From contig CP138355.1 of assembly GCA_033584155.1 (NCBI GenBank), forward strand, positions 2,185,501 to 2,249,500: a stretch of DNA of 64,000 bases, given 5' to 3'. Below, one piece after another: positions 17,569 through 41,644 of the stretch (position 1 is its first letter; each line of letters begins with the position of its first letter). A model generated the notes under the pieces. That model was not told the origin of the DNA. It saw nothing but the letters and a program-made list of their open reading frames with translations, and did not search any database. A program made the position numbers and the translations under genes. The stretch is from Candidatus Electrothrix scaldis (GTDB lineage Bacteria > Desulfobacterota > Desulfobulbia > Desulfobulbales > Desulfobulbaceae).

Positions 17569-19488
17569 CTATACTGGTCGGACTACCAGATGCTCCATGA
17601 TATACTGGCGGCGATCAGGCGTATTTTTTCCCATATAAAAATTAAGAACCTTGCCGACTTCAGACAGGCTGTCCAGCCGCACGTGCTGAAGTCGCATATC
17701 CGGGCCGATGAACTGCTTAAATTCCGGCGGTGATATCTCCCCGAGTCCCTTGAAGCGGGTCACTTCTACGGAAGAGGCGTTGCCTTTCCCCTTTAACTTG
17801 TTAATTGCCTTTGCTTTTTCCTGGTCTGAATAGCAATAGATGGTCTGCTTTTTATTTCTGGCCCGAAAAATAGGGGTCTCCAGTATGTAAACATGACCGA
17901 GCTTGATCAAGGGTTCAAAATAATGGAGAAAAAAAGTAAGGAGCAGATTGCGGATATGTAAGCCGTCCACGTCCGCATCTGTAGCCATTATAATCTTGTC
18001 AAAGCGCAGGTCAGCAATGGAATCCTCAATATTGAGGCTTTGCATCAGAGAGTACATCTCATCATTTTTGTAGAGGATGTCAAGCCGTTGGCCGAATACA
18101 TTCATCGGCTTTCCCTTGAGGGAAAAAACCGCCTGGGTCATGGGATCACGGGAGGAGACAATAGAGCCCGCAGCGGATTGTCCCTCGGTGATGAAGATCA
18201 TATTCTCCTGACCTTTTTTCGAGGGCTTTTGCCGGGAAGGGTGGTGCTTGCAGTCTTTGAGCTGGGGGATTTTGAAGGAAATTTTTTTCGCTTTGGCCTT
18301 GGCTTCCTTACGAACAGATTGTAATTCCTTACGGATGCGTTCATTCCGTTGTACCTTGTCCATAAATATTTCTGTACATTCCGGGTGTTTGTACAGATAA
18401 GTGGCAACGGCTTTCCGAACCTCGTTAACTATCCATCCTTTGATATCGGTGTTCCCCAGTTTGTTTTTGGTCTGGGACTCAAAAACCGGCTCCTGTACCT
18501 TAACAGCAAGGGTACCGACAATCCCATCCCGCACATCCTTTCCTGTGTATTTTTTGTCGGAAAATTCATTAACACCTTTGAGGATGCCTTCCCGAAAGGC
18601 GGAAAGATGGGTTCCTCCCTCAGAGGTATAGGTCCCATTAACAAAGGAATAATAGGTCTCGCTGTAATCGTCTGTGTGGGTAAAGGCGAATTCAAGGGCC
18701 GTCCCGGAAGATTGGATAGGTGGATAGATTCCTCTGTCACCCAGTTCTTTGCTGAGTAGATCAAGAAGCCCTTTTGCTGAATAATATTTTTTCGTTGCTG
18801 GTTGGGAGGTCTCAGTGTCCCCGGCAGATGCCGGTGCATCAAGATAGAGGGTCAAGCCCGCGTTCAGGTAGGCATATCGCCAGAGTCGCTGATCCACGTA
18901 GTCCATGTCAAAAGAATAACTGGGAAAGGACTCGGTGTCAGGAAGAAACTCAATCAATGTGCCGTCTTTCTCTTCGGTTTTGCCCTCTTCCTCTTCAATC
19001 AATGTGCCATGCTCAAAGATTGCTTTTTTAAATTGACCTTCACGAAAGGCGCAGACTGTGAAGTGCTCAGAAAGGGCATTCACCGCCTTGGTGCCAACCC
19101 CGTTCAGTCCCACAGAAAATTGAAAGACATCGGTGTTGTACTTAGCTCCTGTGTTGATGACGGACACGCATTCAACAACTTTACCCAAGGGGATGCCACG
19201 ACCATAATCACGAATACGGCAACGTCCGTTTGCATCAATAGAGATATCCACCTGTTTGCCGTATCCCATGATGTATTCGTCTACAGCATTATCAATCACC
19301 TCTTTCAGGAGGATGTAGATACCATCGTCAGGGTCCGAGCCGTTGCCGAGTCGGCCGATATACATGCCGGGGCGTTTACGGATGTGCTCCAAAGAGCTGA
19401 GGGTTTTGATCTTCGATTCGTCGTATTGATGTTCTGACACGTTATTTGTTTTCTTGTTAGGGGTTTGTGGGGTGTCTGCTTTTATCAT
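17569..19488 (-). CDS. parE: Type IIA DNA topoisomerase B subunit (ParE/GyrB-like)
   Basis: This 639-residue subunit binds ATP and, with an A subunit, passes one DNA duplex through another to relax or decatenate DNA. The GHKL ATPase is shown by EVIDNAVDEY, DYGRGIPLG and GLNGVGTKAVNALS. The TOPRIM domain shows FITEGQSAAGSI and MATDADVDGLHIR, and the tail has TRFKGLGEISP. The usual EGDSA is EGQSA here, a substitution next to the catalytic Glu. Wording such as NIEDSIADLRFDKIIMATDAD resembles the Bacteroides-type ParE lineage more than proteobacterial GyrB. No parC/gyrA is adjacent. I prefer the ATG at 19488 over a TTG 18 codons upstream; neither has a clear ribosome-binding site. Confidence 0.85.
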   Translation of the reverse strand: MIKADTPQTPNKKTNNVSEHQYDESKIKTLSSLEHIRKRPGMYIGRLGNGSDPDDGIYILLKEVIDNAVDEYIMGYGKQVDISIDANGRCRIRDYGRGIPLGKVVECVSVINTGAKYNTDVFQFSVGLNGVGTKAVNALSEHFTVCAFREGQFKKAIFEHGTLIEEEEGKTEEKDGTLIEFLPDTESFPSYSFDMDYVDQRLWRYAYLNAGLTLYLDAPASAGDTETSQPATKKYYSAKGLLDLLSKELGDRGIYPPIQSSGTALEFAFTHTDDYSETYYSFVNGTYTSEGGTHLSAFREGILKGVNEFSDKKYTGKDVRDGIVGTLAVKVQEPVFESQTKNKLGNTDIKGWIVNEVRKAVATYLYKHPECTEIFMDKVQRNERIRKELQSVRKEAKAKAKKISFKIPQLKDCKHHPSRQKPSKKGQENMIFITEGQSAAGSIVSSRDPMTQAVFSLKGKPMNVFGQRLDILYKNDEMYSLMQSLNIEDSIADLRFDKIIMATDADVDGLHIRNLLLTFFLHYFEPLIKLGHVYILETPIFRARNKKQTIYCYSDQEKAKAINKLKGKGNASSVEVTRFKGLGEISPPEFKQFIGPDMRLQHVRLDSLSEVGKVLNFYMGKNTPDRRQYIMEHLVVRPV

Positions 19489-19894
19489 AGTGCCGGGCTG
19501 GCATAACGATAAACAGCAGTTTACTCTATCTGAGGAGAGCAAGTCAAAAGATAGTGACCATATTTTGCGAAGAAATTTCTTTGCAAAAGGAGATGTGGCG
19601 TAGGGTGGGTATTTATTTCCTATTGACTTTTTTGGTAAGGATAAAACTTACTCGTTTTGCAGGGTTAGTAAAAAAGAGGTTTTGTTGGGAAGGATTCTTG
19701 TTCCTGTTAAAGGAGAGTCATTACAGGAGATTAGAAAAAAGCGATCTGGAGGGAAGAAAAGTGGCATGGATATAGCAAATATAAAAGCGAGACACACGAA
19801 GAAAGAAAGTCGAAGCAAGAATAAGTTATAACGGAGAGACAACAGGGTTCTGAATAAATATACTTTATTTTCCCCTTTTTTATATATAACTTAG
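19489..19894. other. Gene-poor leader region upstream of the hairpin array
   Basis: About 400 bp contain only a weak 73-codon frame (19554-19775, plus strand) with low-complexity composition that I do not accept. The end is AT-rich. TATAAC at 19885-19890 could be a -10 element for the plus-strand array, but the matching -35 is poor (ACTTTA, 19862-19867). Confidence 0.35.
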
Positions 19895-19909
19895 GGTGCG
19901 CAACCCTAT

Positions 19910-19947
19910 CCCCGGCAGGTTTACTCCTCCTTTTTTTTCTGCCGGGG
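19910..19947 (+). repeat. Array hairpin 1
   Basis: Stem CCCCGGCAG (19910-19918) pairs perfectly with CTGCCGGGG (19939-19947). The loop holds CTCCTCC at 19924-19930 and a run of eight T. Confidence 0.8.
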
Positions 19948-19993
19948 CCTTTTACTCCGTTTGCTTCGCCTGTAAAGTAAGGCTCAACCCTGT

Positions 19994-20031
19994 GTCTCGG
20001 TAGGTTTCTCCTCCTTTTTTCCTGCCGAGAC
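19994..20031 (+). repeat. Array hairpin 2
   Basis: Stem GTCTCGGTAGG (19994-20004) pairs with CCTGCCGAGAC (20021-20031), with one G-U pair. The loop carries TTTCTCCTCC and is three bases shorter than in copies 3-5. CTCAACCCTGT precedes it. Confidence 0.8.
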
Positions 20032-20073
20032 ATGTAACTCAGCTGAGTTAATGGGCACAATGCTCAACCTTAT

Positions 20074-20113
20074 GCCCTGGCAGGTTTACTCCTCCTTTTT
20101 TTCCTGTCAGGGC
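20074..20113 (+). repeat. Array hairpin 3
   Basis: Stem GCCCTGGCAGG (20074-20084) pairs with CCTGTCAGGGC (20103-20113), with one G-U pair. Several base pairs differ from copies 2 and 4 while pairing is kept. The loop carries TTTACTCCTCC and a T-run. Confidence 0.8.
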
Positions 20114-20154
20114 ATGTATCTAAGCTGGTTTTAAAGGGTAAGGTTCAACCCTGT

Positions 20155-20195
20155 ACCTCGGTAGGTTTACTCCTCCTTTTTTTTCCTACCGAGGT
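20155..20195 (+). repeat. Array hairpin 4
   Basis: Stem ACCTCGGTAGG (20155-20165) pairs perfectly over 11 bp with CCTACCGAGGT (20185-20195). The 19-base loop reads TTTACTCCTCC followed by eight T. Confidence 0.85.
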
Positions 20196-20228
20196 GCGTA
20201 CTTCGAGCAATATAAGGTTCAACCCGAT

Positions 20229-20270
20229 ACCTCGGTAGGTTTACTCCTCCTTTTTTTTTCCTGCCGGGGT
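20229..20270 (+). repeat. Array hairpin 5
   Basis: Stem ACCTCGGTAGG (20229-20239) pairs with CCTGCCGGGGT (20260-20270) using two G-U pairs. The left arm equals that of copy 4 while the right arm differs by wobble-preserving changes. ATTTTTTATA follows directly. Confidence 0.8.
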
Positions 20271-20291
20271 ATTTTTTATAAGTTGGACAGG

Positions 20292-20318
20292 ACACCCCGT
20301 TAAGGGGTGTTTTTTTTT
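20292..20318 (+). terminator. Intrinsic terminator of the hairpin array
   Basis: ACACCCC (20292-20298) pairs with GGGGTGT (20304-20310) around a GTTAA loop, and an unbroken T-run continues to 20318. It functions only on the plus strand; on the minus strand (priA direction) the bases after the stem are not U-rich. This defines the plus strand as the transcribed strand of the array. Confidence 0.85.
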
Positions 20319-20327
20319 GAGGCTCGG

Positions 20328-22862
20328 CTACAGCATATTTTCAGGATCCACATCAAGCGTCATTCGGACGTCCTTCCCGCAAAGCTTTTTTTTATTTTCA
20401 AGAAGCAGATCACAGAGGTAGTGAAGAAATTCAGGTGTACCGCTTTTTAGGAGTAATTGCCAACGAAAGCGTTGTCTTATCATGGCTAAGGGGGCAGGAG
20501 CTGGGCCCAGAATCTCCACGCTCTGTTCTGTTGTTTTTTGTGCAGTCAGAACAGAACGGAGAAAGGATGCAGCAGCTTTTGCTGTTTTTTGTACGTCAGC
20601 TTCCTCTTTGCCGCTGAATCGAATATTGACCAGCCTGCCGAAAGGGGGATACGCCAGAGCTTTCCTCAGGGCGAGTTCCTGGGTATATAATTTTTGATAT
20701 GCATGGGATTGAGCAAATTCGATGACATAGTGCTGCGGTTGGTGGGTCTGGATGATAACCTTACCCGGATGTTCTCCGCGTCCGGCCCGTCCTGTTACTT
20801 GGGCCAGGAGCTGGTAGGAACGTTCAGCGGCCTTATAATCAGGAAGTCCCAGCCCACTGTCTGCCCAAACGATTCCTACAAGGGTCATGGCTGGAAAATG
20901 GAGGCCTTTTGCGACCATTTGTGTTCCGACCAGGATATCCACCTCTTGATTGCGTACCTGTTCTAAAATACGCAGATAGGTCTTGCGGTCTCGTGTTGTA
21001 TCACTATCCAGGCGGACGACTTTTGCATTGGGAAAGACTTGACGGACTTCCTGTTCGATTCGTTCCGACCCTACTCCCAGGCCGATAATCGAGCTGGAAC
21101 CGCAGTCCGGGCAGATGAGGTTTGGTGTTGTTGAGTAGCCGCAGTAATGGCAGAGCAGGCGATTATCCTTGTGATGAAGAGTGAGGGAAACCTTGCAGTG
21201 GCGGCACTGAATAATGTGCCCACAGTCCCGGCAGAGCATAAAGGCGGCATAACCGCGTCGATTGACAAAGAGCAAGCTCTGTTGCCGCTTCTCCAAATTT
21301 TGTGCCAAGGCACTGAGGAGTTGTTCTGAAAAGAAGCTGCTCCGGGGAGATCGTTTTTTATCCCGAAGATCAATAACGCTCACCTCGGGCATGGCCTGAT
21401 CATGTACCCGCTTGGTCATGCTTAGGAGACGGTATTTCCCCTGTTCCGCATGATAAAAACTGGTCACAGAAGGCGTTGCCGAGGCAAGGAGGATCGGGCA
21501 CTCGGCGAATTTTGCTCGTAACACGGCCAGATCTCGTCCGTTATAACGGAGTCCGTCGTCCTGTTTATAGGCAGGCTCATGTTCCTCATCCACAATAATC
21601 AGACCCGGTTTAGCGAGCGGGGCAAAGACGGCAGAGCGGGCCCCTATGACAATCCGTACTTTGCCCTGAAGAATTCGCTGCCATTGATCAAAGCGTTCTC
21701 CCTTTGCAATACCGCTGTGGAGGATGGCCAGGATGTCACCGAAACGGGAATAAAAATGTCCTTCCAGTTGCGAAGAAAGAGCTATTTCCGGCACCAGGAC
21801 CAGAACGGATTTTTCGGTCTTCAGGCAGTGTTCGGTTGCCCGCAGGTACACCTCTGTTTTGCCGCATCCGGTTACACCGTGCAAGAGAAAGGGGTGAAAT
21901 CCACCTTTGTCTAATCCCTCCTTTATCGTTCCTATAACTTGCTGTTGTTCCTGAGTGAGCGTTGCAGGCTGAGGAAAAAAAGGTGGCACCTTGCCAAAGG
22001 GGTCCCGGTAGACACGCTGTTCCTCAAGGGAGATCAGGCCAGCATCTGCCAGGCTATGTAGTGCTTTGCCTGCTCCAGAGTATTGTCGGGTTAGTTCGGC
22101 GCGAGGGAGAACAGGTGCCCCCTTGCAATGTTGGAAAAAGATCTCCAGGGTTTTGCGCTCAGAAAGTTTTAATTTCTCCTGTATATTTGAGGGAAAGGGG
22201 AGTGTAGTTGTTGTTTGTTTCTTTTTCTCAGGTATTTCTATTGATTGGTAGAAGGGGAGGGCTTCTTGAAGTTCGGAGTTCAATCTGACCACGGTTTCTT
22301 TTTTGGCCTTGATTGCCGAGTTGACAAGTACCTCCTTTATTTCTATCCATCCCTTGGTCTGCCATGTTCGGAGCAAGCGCTGCATGGCAGGTTTGGTTCG
22401 AATATTTTTGGCCGTTCCCGGCTGGATGATGCCTTTAGAGAGCAGGCGATCCATCCAGGCGGTGCGTTTTTTTACTGTGGTAAGCGCGGTCGGTAGTTGC
22501 TGACGACCTATTTCTGTCAGGATAATTTCGTAACCAGAGCCCGCTCGAAGGCCGGAGGGTAGGGCGGTTTGAATGACCTCACCAAGGGGATAATGGTAAT
22601 AGGCCGCGAGCCAACGAAAAAAGGGAATGAGCTGTTCCGGGAAAAGAGGCGCCGTATCAAGTCGTTCGGCAAGAGCTTTGATTGGGTACGAGAGCTCAGG
22701 AGGAGTGTTGGATGAGGAGAGAATATAACCGGTAACGAGGCGGTTACGGAGGGGGACTAAGACTCGTATCCCGAGAGGTACAACCTCTCTTTCCTCAGGT
22801 GCCTGTGTGTAGGTAAGGGTGTCGAAAAGAGGAGCGGCGACAGCAACTTCATAATAGGTCAT
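20328..22862 (-). CDS. priA: Primosomal replication-restart helicase PriA
   Basis: PriA recognises stalled or recombination-made forks and reloads the replisome. The 844-residue protein has the N-terminal DNA-binding domain (YYEVAVAAPLFDTLTY), Walker A GVTGCGKTEVY, Walker B IIVDEEHE, and helicase motif VLASATPSVTSF. The zinc-binding region has four CxxC-type pairs (CRDCGHIIQCRHC, CHYCG, CPDCGS). VTGRAGRGEHPG is the motif VI region. Length and order are typical. galU lies 27 bp upstream on the same strand, so the two are probably transcribed together. Its stop is ten bases from the terminator of the opposing hairpin array. Confidence 0.97.
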   Translation of the reverse strand: MTYYEVAVAAPLFDTLTYTQAPEEREVVPLGIRVLVPLRNRLVTGYILSSSNTPPELSYPIKALAERLDTAPLFPEQLIPFFRWLAAYYHYPLGEVIQTALPSGLRAGSGYEIILTEIGRQQLPTALTTVKKRTAWMDRLLSKGIIQPGTAKNIRTKPAMQRLLRTWQTKGWIEIKEVLVNSAIKAKKETVVRLNSELQEALPFYQSIEIPEKKKQTTTTLPFPSNIQEKLKLSERKTLEIFFQHCKGAPVLPRAELTRQYSGAGKALHSLADAGLISLEEQRVYRDPFGKVPPFFPQPATLTQEQQQVIGTIKEGLDKGGFHPFLLHGVTGCGKTEVYLRATEHCLKTEKSVLVLVPEIALSSQLEGHFYSRFGDILAILHSGIAKGERFDQWQRILQGKVRIVIGARSAVFAPLAKPGLIIVDEEHEPAYKQDDGLRYNGRDLAVLRAKFAECPILLASATPSVTSFYHAEQGKYRLLSMTKRVHDQAMPEVSVIDLRDKKRSPRSSFFSEQLLSALAQNLEKRQQSLLFVNRRGYAAFMLCRDCGHIIQCRHCKVSLTLHHKDNRLLCHYCGYSTTPNLICPDCGSSSIIGLGVGSERIEQEVRQVFPNAKVVRLDSDTTRDRKTYLRILEQVRNQEVDILVGTQMVAKGLHFPAMTLVGIVWADSGLGLPDYKAAERSYQLLAQVTGRAGRGEHPGKVIIQTHQPQHYVIEFAQSHAYQKLYTQELALRKALAYPPFGRLVNIRFSGKEEADVQKTAKAAASFLRSVLTAQKTTEQSVEILGPAPAPLAMIRQRFRWQLLLKSGTPEFLHYLCDLLLENKKKLCGKDVRMTLDVDPENML

Positions 22863-41461: not shown

Positions 41462-41590
41462 ACGGAAAGCCGTGTGCGGGAAAACCGCACGCACGGTTTG
41501 ATGAGGGAGCATTGAGGAAGCAAGTTCCAGGTACACGTAGTAGCCGCGTGCGGCGAGGCGTCTGTAAAAAGGGCCGGGGAAACTACTGAA
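41462..41590 (+). mobile_element. Group II intron 3' remnant (domains V-VI)
   Basis: Bases 41464-41499 match group II intron domain V: an AAGCCGTGTGCGG arm, an A-rich loop and CCGCAC-GC-ACGGTTT with the usual two-base bulge. The catalytic AGC triad is present in AAAGCCG. What follows could be domain VI, and the stretch ending CTACTCTACCC (near 41598-41608) recalls typical intron 3' ends. No reverse transcriptase/maturase gene and no 5' intron end are visible within the window, so this is a fragment. The exact 3' limit is uncertain. Confidence 0.65.
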
Positions 41591-41644
41591 TCAGTGCTCT
41601 ACTCTACCCTATTATGCCTATTATTATGTCCCCTATTATTATAA

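Follow-up and report, generated by a model that had tools for sequence, protein, structure and literature searches.

What is the role of a tandem array of hairpins in the genome of Candidatus Electrothrix scaldis that lies between two genes transcribed from the opposite strand? In the 64,000-nt stretch of DNA analysed here (the window), five hairpins on the plus strand, their loops reading CUCCUCC(U)n, occupy positions 19896-20275 and are followed by a terminator. Since the left neighbour is directed away from the array and the right one toward it, the array serves no same-strand neighbour gene. Our preferred reading, which we hold at a probability of about 0.55, is that the locus encodes a sigma-54-controlled RNA array whose anti-Shine-Dalgarno (anti-SD) loops would repress selected mRNAs, mainly those for exported and membrane proteins, and whose hairpin came from a ZraP/CpxP-like gene. 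The array and its neighbours comprise the following features, the units being defined by alignment, fold and covariance model:

17569-19542, minus strand: GyrB/ParE-like gene, the divergent neighbour
19778-19892, plus strand: leader, a conserved AT-rich block ahead of unit 1
19893-19953, plus strand: unit 1, CGCAACCC within a short hairpin, with the anti-SD hairpin next
19980-20036, plus strand: unit 2, CTCAACCC box and anti-SD hairpin
20060-20118, plus strand: unit 3, CTCAACC box and anti-SD hairpin
20141-20200, plus strand: unit 4, TTCAACCC box and anti-SD hairpin
20215-20275, plus strand: unit 5, TTCAACCC box and anti-SD hairpin, then TATTTTTTAT
20289-20318, plus strand: intrinsic terminator ending the array
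20328-22862, minus strand: priA, the convergent neighbour

A first-pass annotation had proposed five tandem anti-SD hairpins at this position, and the sequence bears this out: CTCCTCCTTTT occurs five times in the 64-kb window, every copy within the array, where 0.08 copies are expected and none of 100 shuffles reached five. By alignment the units start at 19893, 19978, 20058, 20139 and 20213, giving spacings of 85, 80, 81 and 74. The array folds on the plus strand at -173 kcal/mol (z -9.9), a value equalled by none of 100 shuffles, and on the minus strand at -147 kcal/mol (z -5.7). The plus-strand terminator said to close the array was also found, as an intrinsic-terminator-like stem and T tail at 20289-20313, and its start is recognisable 3' of the array in several other loci of the genus. 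The box described as leading every unit is present as TTCAACC or CTCAACC in units 2-5, while unit 1 carries CGCAACCC instead. The short hairpin that holds the box of unit 1 (TAGGGTGCGCAACCCTA, 19892-19908) is peculiar to that unit; in another Electrothrix genome (G001) its arms are preserved and its loop is altered.

To assess the stems we aligned 29 units of genus and family members; 26 were taken from the 37 listed and three were added, near-identical copies being excluded. Across the 13-bp stem 97.1% of 374 cells are paired, compared with 33-59% in slid controls. Seven of the 13 pairs show double changes, three are invariant and three are altered on one side only. When 3' letters were exchanged among sequences, the number of pairs with double changes was reached by 6 of 500 shuffles, the number of pair types by 80 and the covariation score by none. 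The stems had been described as covarying; the double changes uphold this, but the covariation is only moderate, as stems with shuffled 3' letters still pair in 92.3% of cells on average. G-U pairs occupy 34 cells on the plus strand, versus 3 cells with an A-C mismatch (a G-U pair when read on the minus strand), and we therefore take the plus strand to be the RNA strand. Together, these comparisons support a non-coding RNA candidate on the plus strand that is conserved and covarying, carries anti-SD loops and varies in its number of units.

A covariance model of the hairpin unit was run on 57 relatives, several of which contributed rows to the model and so match by construction, and 34 of the 57 matched at E<=0.01. 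Within the family 30 of 36 genomes matched at this threshold and 28 of 36 at E<=1e-4, including all eight of the genus. Elsewhere in the order matches were found in 4 of 21 genomes, all of them weak, and the best (E 1.1e-4) is a hairpin without the anti-SD loop. In a sample of the phylum 8 of 297 genomes matched at E<=0.001, three of these belonging to the family; of the five outside it, two (L074 and L076) have no anti-SD loop in the stretch inspected. One locus, in a genome from a different family of the phylum (L073, G125), has a single CCCCGGGTGG hairpin that carries CCCCTCCTTTTTT in its loop (E 6e-8). Exact matches to the loop were found in 10 stretches, from Ca. Electrothrix gigas, marina and aarhusensis, Ca. 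Electronema aureum, Desulfobulbus sp. F5, three other Desulfobulbaceae and Draconibacterium. The Draconibacterium match lies, by eye, inside a coding sequence and was taken as chance.

Absence from related genomes had been named as an observation that would count against a regulatory RNA; the array is present in all eight Candidatus Electrothrix genomes examined. In each of them it adjoins priA, and a parE-like gene flanks the other side in seven, G002 having none inside the 1.5-kb flank. The arrays contain five units in G000, G003 and G005, sixteen in G007, four in G004 and three in G001 and G002, and three are visible in G006, where the array is split over contigs. Two blocks of near-identical units in G007 indicate that the unit count changes fast. 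Loop, box and promoter elements are conserved and the linkers are variable. In five loci of relatives (L010, L011, L059, L064 and L218) the CAACCC box immediately 5' of the stem is replaced by TCTCCTCCT, a second anti-SD sequence. A dispersed repeat of the REP or MITE type was ruled out, as in the 5.09 Mb of the genome itself only the five array units and one solitary copy reach E<=0.01; a DNA search added only three partial matches of 16-18 nt (E 0.3-0.5).

The solitary copies constitute a second locus. Of eight solitary matches that were aligned, seven read as a separate small RNA composed of box, anti-SD hairpin and T-run; five of these seven are preceded by a short hairpin, CTTAACA..TGTTAAG, and another one by an altered form of it. 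The eighth match, from G002, is weak and does not fit the pattern. The module thus seems to be used in more than one setting. The second anti-SD small RNA of Electrothrix (L209-L214 and L215, the last at G000:C1:5045200-5046100) is preceded in these loci by a conserved GTTCAT(G/C)TTCTGTTAATCTT block with the appearance of an 11-bp direct repeat, and a TATAAT lies 3' of this block in G000. Direct repeats of 11 bp are used by OmpR/PhoB-type regulators.

To ask where the hairpin came from, we turned to 20 loci around matches to the model, 19 from family members outside the genus and one the solitary copy of the genome itself. In 11 of the 20, PriA is encoded on the far side of the hairpin. In 15 a ZraP-like open reading frame (ORF) on the same strand ends 8-91 nt 5' of the hairpin, and all 15 match one of their number by sequence (E 2.2e-6 or better), the diverged form of the Electronema group included. 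In Pfam, three of these ORFs matched Metal_resist (1e-6 to 8e-6; one at the cut-off, two just below) and the two Electronema-group proteins matched nothing; in NCBIfam, two ORFs matched ZraP (4e-8 and 3e-10), far short of its cut-off. Many loci also have a long divergent ORF opposite the ZraP-like gene, and the one examined resembles AtoS/ZraS sensor kinases at a score below cut-off. In three of the 20 (G012, G046 and G038) no ZraP-like ORF separates a sigma-54 site from a lone hairpin 86-93 nt downstream, and G015 provides a fourth place with this layout and no such ORF. The remaining two, G048 and the solitary copy, have neither arrangement. No ZraP-like gene was found at the Electrothrix array locus, where the leader at 19778-19892 is, by its sequence, too short to hold one; elsewhere in the genome there is one Metal_resist/CpxP-like gene. 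Given its wider spread, the ZraP-like gene was probably lost in Electrothrix rather than gained by the others. The module would thus have started out as a hairpin in the 3' untranslated region of an envelope-stress gene of ZraP/CpxP type, with evolution presumably running in that direction.

The region upstream of the array contains three elements that could control it:

19607-19621, plus strand: operator palindrome 1, a diverged GGGTAAnnnTTACCC with 3 mismatches, at -154 from the sigma-54 site and 32 bp from operator 2
19639-19653, plus strand: operator palindrome 2, GGATAAAACTTACTC with 2 mismatches, conserved in the genus alignment
19761-19777, plus strand: sigma-54 promoter-like element GTGGCATGGATATAGCA (GG-N10-GC), score 15/18

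Sigma-54 sites were scored with a simple weighted consensus (maximum 18) over 1,100 nt upstream in the 20 loci. A score of at least 15 was reached in 18 of the 20, and in 4 of the 20 on the opposite strand; the solitary copy of the genome itself has no site scoring 15. A site of the same form lies within a conservation island in all eight loci of the genus, and RpoN is encoded in the genome. On both strands of the whole window, 8 places score at least 15, the array's own site included. A sigma-70 promoter was considered and rejected: the array is preceded by one 9/12 match (19836-19864), and the region holds 2 such matches where 1.6 are expected.

In the relatives' loci the palindrome GGGTAAnnnTTACCC was recognised 230-260 bp upstream. 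With at most 2 mismatches it occurs upstream in all 18 loci that have a sigma-54 site, the motif having been discovered and counted in these same loci, and in 13 of the 18 there are paired sites (at most 3 mismatches) with a spacing of 32-33 bp, at about -143 and -111. Among 463,706 sampled positions none has at most 1 mismatch and 15 have 2. In Electrothrix a pair 32 bp apart with 2-3 mismatches was found in all seven loci scanned, six of which are independent of motif discovery (G005, which is near-identical to G000, was left out). The sigma-54 site and operators of the window are weaker than those of most relatives, with TAGCA as the -12 element and 2-3 mismatches in the operators. The elements that define a ZraR/sigma-54 regulon, a sigma-54 promoter and upstream activator sites, are present as sequence, in diverged form in the window. 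As both the sigma-54 site and the operator pair have been kept, the array appears to stand under a control region built like that of the missing ZraP-like gene.

We then considered what the loops could pair with. The 16S gene of this genome ends in GGATCACCTCCTTTTT / CACCTCCTTTTT, and since it terminates in GGATCACCTCCTTTTT, CCUCCUUUUU is common to the loop and the 16S end. A general SD sponge, as had been suggested, was not borne out: over 342 gene starts from a 464-kb genome sample that includes the window, mean loop pairing was -9.4, versus -9.0 ± 0.6 for 20 shuffled loops, and the top single match among these 'starts' came from a spurious frame lying antisense to the array. A few genes with an extended AAAAGGAGGAG site are a more likely target class than SD sites at large. 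AAAAGGAGGAG stands 2-10 nt 5' of an ATG at nine places in the genome, eight of them with frames of at least 60 aa; the ninth was dropped as a 4-aa frame. The eight candidate targets, with names read from sequence where a name is given, are:

lipoprotein gene, AAAAGGAGGAG site
two secreted 108-aa paralogues, AAAAGGAGGAGTAAC, a 14-nt match to loop UUACUCCUCCUUUU
protein of at least 501 aa, AAAAGGAGGAG site
secreted repeat protein, AAAAGGAGGAG site
NhaA-like antiporter, its leader also with GGGTTGAAC, the complement of the box
small secreted protein, divergent from the NhaA-like gene
secreted protein of 120 aa, encoded some 1.3 kb away from the CpxP-like gene that remains

AAAAAAGGAGGAG opens both of the divergent genes, the NhaA-like gene and that for the small secreted protein (L032, 1480-1760).

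A hydrophobic N-terminus is predicted for 6 of these 8 proteins. The proportion is lower among SD-bearing genes (17 of 73, p 0.006) and among genes at large (81 of 338, p 0.004). This was a small test of eight genes, and both its hypothesis and its hydrophobicity cut-off were fixed after the values had been seen. The comparison genes were called genes of the 464-kb sample; they replaced an earlier control, any frame behind an SD-like string, that was diluted by false frames. Across eight genomes, with the near-identical G000 and G005 both counted, 11 of 22 families pass the cut-off (p 0.018 and 0.0096), one of the 11 being an aldolase-like enzyme that is probably cytosolic. In the same genomes AAAAGGAGGAG precedes an ATG 49 times, versus 13 for AAAAGGAGGTG and 11 for the pattern read backwards; the 49 matches gave 48 rows, 38 of them of at least 60 aa. 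One of 5 families passes in the AAAAGGAGGTG control, a set too small for use. The orthologue of one candidate target carries AAAAGGAGGTG in place of AAAAGGAGGAG, and most predicted target families are confined to one or two of the eight genomes.

From these elements we infer transcription, processing, the identity of the activator, pairing in the cell and repression along the following lines. An enhancer-binding activator seated on the two upstream palindromes would fire sigma-54 RNA polymerase under stress, with transcription expected to start near 19788 and end at about 20318, giving a free-standing regulatory RNA of ~530 nt. Its module, repeated five times, combines the CAACCC box with a stem no longer than 13 bp and the loop UUUACUCCUCCUUUUUUUU, which mimics the 3' tail of 16S rRNA. 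The RNA may act whole or cut in its AU-rich linkers, and its loops would pair with AAAAGGAGGAG-type ribosome-binding sites and block translation, mainly of exported and membrane proteins. The ancestral ZraP/CpxP-like gene would have gone from the Electrothrix locus while its control region was retained and its hairpin multiplied. More tentatively, and at somewhat short of even odds, we propose that, after a ZraP-like envelope chaperone driven by sigma-54 had disappeared from this locus, its 3'-UTR hairpin persisted, became a non-coding transcript and was amplified to 3-16 anti-SD modules, yielding an Hfq-independent silencer of exported proteins that could be tuned by copy number. No match to the Hfq model PF17209 was found at E<=0.1 in the 96.7% complete genome. 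The periplasm of cable bacteria houses a nickel-containing conductive fibre network (PMC11247825).

Other readings of the array must be set beside this one. As a general sponge or dampener, its loops would compete with 16S rRNA for SD sites, or bind ribosome-associated factors, and turn global translation down under stress. The shared CCUCCUUUUU and the 16 units in the single array of G007 fit such a role, as do the higher counts at starts than in internal coding stretches (81 vs 26 at -12, 11 vs 3 at -16), which are not expressed per total and come from starts preselected for pairing to the 16S tail. The mean pairing with the 342 starts is, however, about that of shuffled loops, and the conserved loop extends beyond the SD core (TTTACTCC and the T-run), which makes this reading unlikely. 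It is also possible to see the U-rich loops or CAACCC boxes as a decoy that titrates an RNA-binding protein, as CsrB-type RNAs do CsrA, with base-pairing incidental. Multiplicity, a constant loop on changing stems and the lack of a detected Hfq would suit a protein site, but the GGA motifs of a CsrB/RsmY-type decoy are found on the minus strand only, the loops of the plus, RNA, strand carrying CUCC. Moreover, TCTCCTCCT immediately 5' of the stem in L010, L011, L059, L064 and L218 argues that the anti-SD sequence itself matters, and we regard a decoy as distinctly unlikely.

The array could instead be passive DNA, either a cluster of terminators or an expanded repeat, with no role beyond keeping upstream transcription apart from the convergent priA. 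T-runs do follow the stem in the solitary copies and in unit 5, and the drifting unit number and near-identical units of G007 are what an expanding repeat would leave. Against this, the stem is not followed by five or more consecutive T in units 1-4, a separate terminator stands 3' of the array, lone hairpins occur under sigma-54 sites, and loop, box and promoter elements are conserved where linkers vary; we place this reading behind both the sponge and the decoy, as improbable. Least probable by far is a functional minus-strand RNA, in which GGAGGAG loops would act as antisense or in priA read-through. Transcription from priA could run into the array and the minus strand folds too (z -5.7), but G-U pairs fall on the plus strand (34 versus 3 cells in the 29 units), and both promoter and terminator are plus-oriented.

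The array had been called undescribed, and this stands within Rfam and the literature searched. No Rfam family matched the array at its gathering score, and relaxed thresholds gave 11 weak matches, including GcvB (E 0.035) and ar14 (E 0.48), all far below gathering. The only gathering-level match in the window is a group II intron elsewhere (41465-41607, RF00029, 52.7 bits). Among the literature matches listed none describes the array RNA, and a search that was not exhaustive, cable-bacteria genome papers included, found no small RNA reported for cable bacteria or Electrothrix. If our reading is correct, the array would give cable bacteria a small-RNA regulator. Living relatives hold possible intermediates (gene and hairpin; promoter and lone hairpin; promoter and array), and the locus would offer an easily followed example of the way in which a regulatory RNA may come about.

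Among known systems, the nearest in shape is the alphaproteobacterial ar14/cuckoo family. NfeR1 of Sinorhizobium meliloti (Rfam RF02344) has several hairpins, each with an unpaired anti-SD motif, on variable stems, as the array does; it downregulates ntrBC, and its promoter is described as lacking a sigma-54 signature (PMC10746234). The array differs in phylum, in its sigma-54 site and predicted ZraP-gene origin, and in its loop, UUUACUCCUCCUUUUUUUU versus the ar14 motif CCUCCUCCC. The RF02344 covariance model scored 18.1 bits on the array (E 0.48) versus a gathering score of 58.8, and the array loops read CUCCUCCUUUU where the ultraconserved CCUCCUCCC is absent; for these two reasons we do not file the array under ar14. 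In tandem layout the closest system is CcsR1-4 of Rhodobacter sphaeroides, in which several sRNAs share a precursor with a Rho-independent terminator and are processed by RNase E (PMC10253847). The array is likewise closed by a terminator, but CcsR1-4 are located behind a DUF1127 gene with an RpoH promoter; the likeness is one of layout.

The control region recalls ZraSR-ZraP, where ZraR drives the divergent sigma-54 promoters of zraSR and zraP (PMC4987338). The relatives too have a ZraP-like gene opposite a kinase, AtoS/ZraS-like in the one case examined. The part of that source bearing on the system mentions no small RNA, whereas the array is a candidate small RNA. CpxQ comes closest in logic: this sRNA arises from the 3' end of the envelope-stress gene cpxP and represses proteins of the inner membrane, the NhaB antiporter among them (PMC9438474). 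For the array, relatives show a ZraP/CpxP-like parent gene, and one of the candidate targets is, by its sequence, NhaA-like. The 3'-UTR position typical of CpxQ is seen in the 15 of 20 loci with a ZraP-like ORF ahead of the hairpin and not at the Electrothrix array. CpxQ depends on Hfq and derives from one 3' UTR, whereas the array is tandem, in a genome with no Hfq found, and its parent gene is missing in Electrothrix. The array is thus read as working like the ar14/cuckoo RNAs and CpxQ and is filed as a member of neither. It would extend the idea behind CpxQ, a non-coding arm of the envelope-stress response, to sigma-54 control in the Desulfobulbaceae, with an operator and a target list that can be tested.
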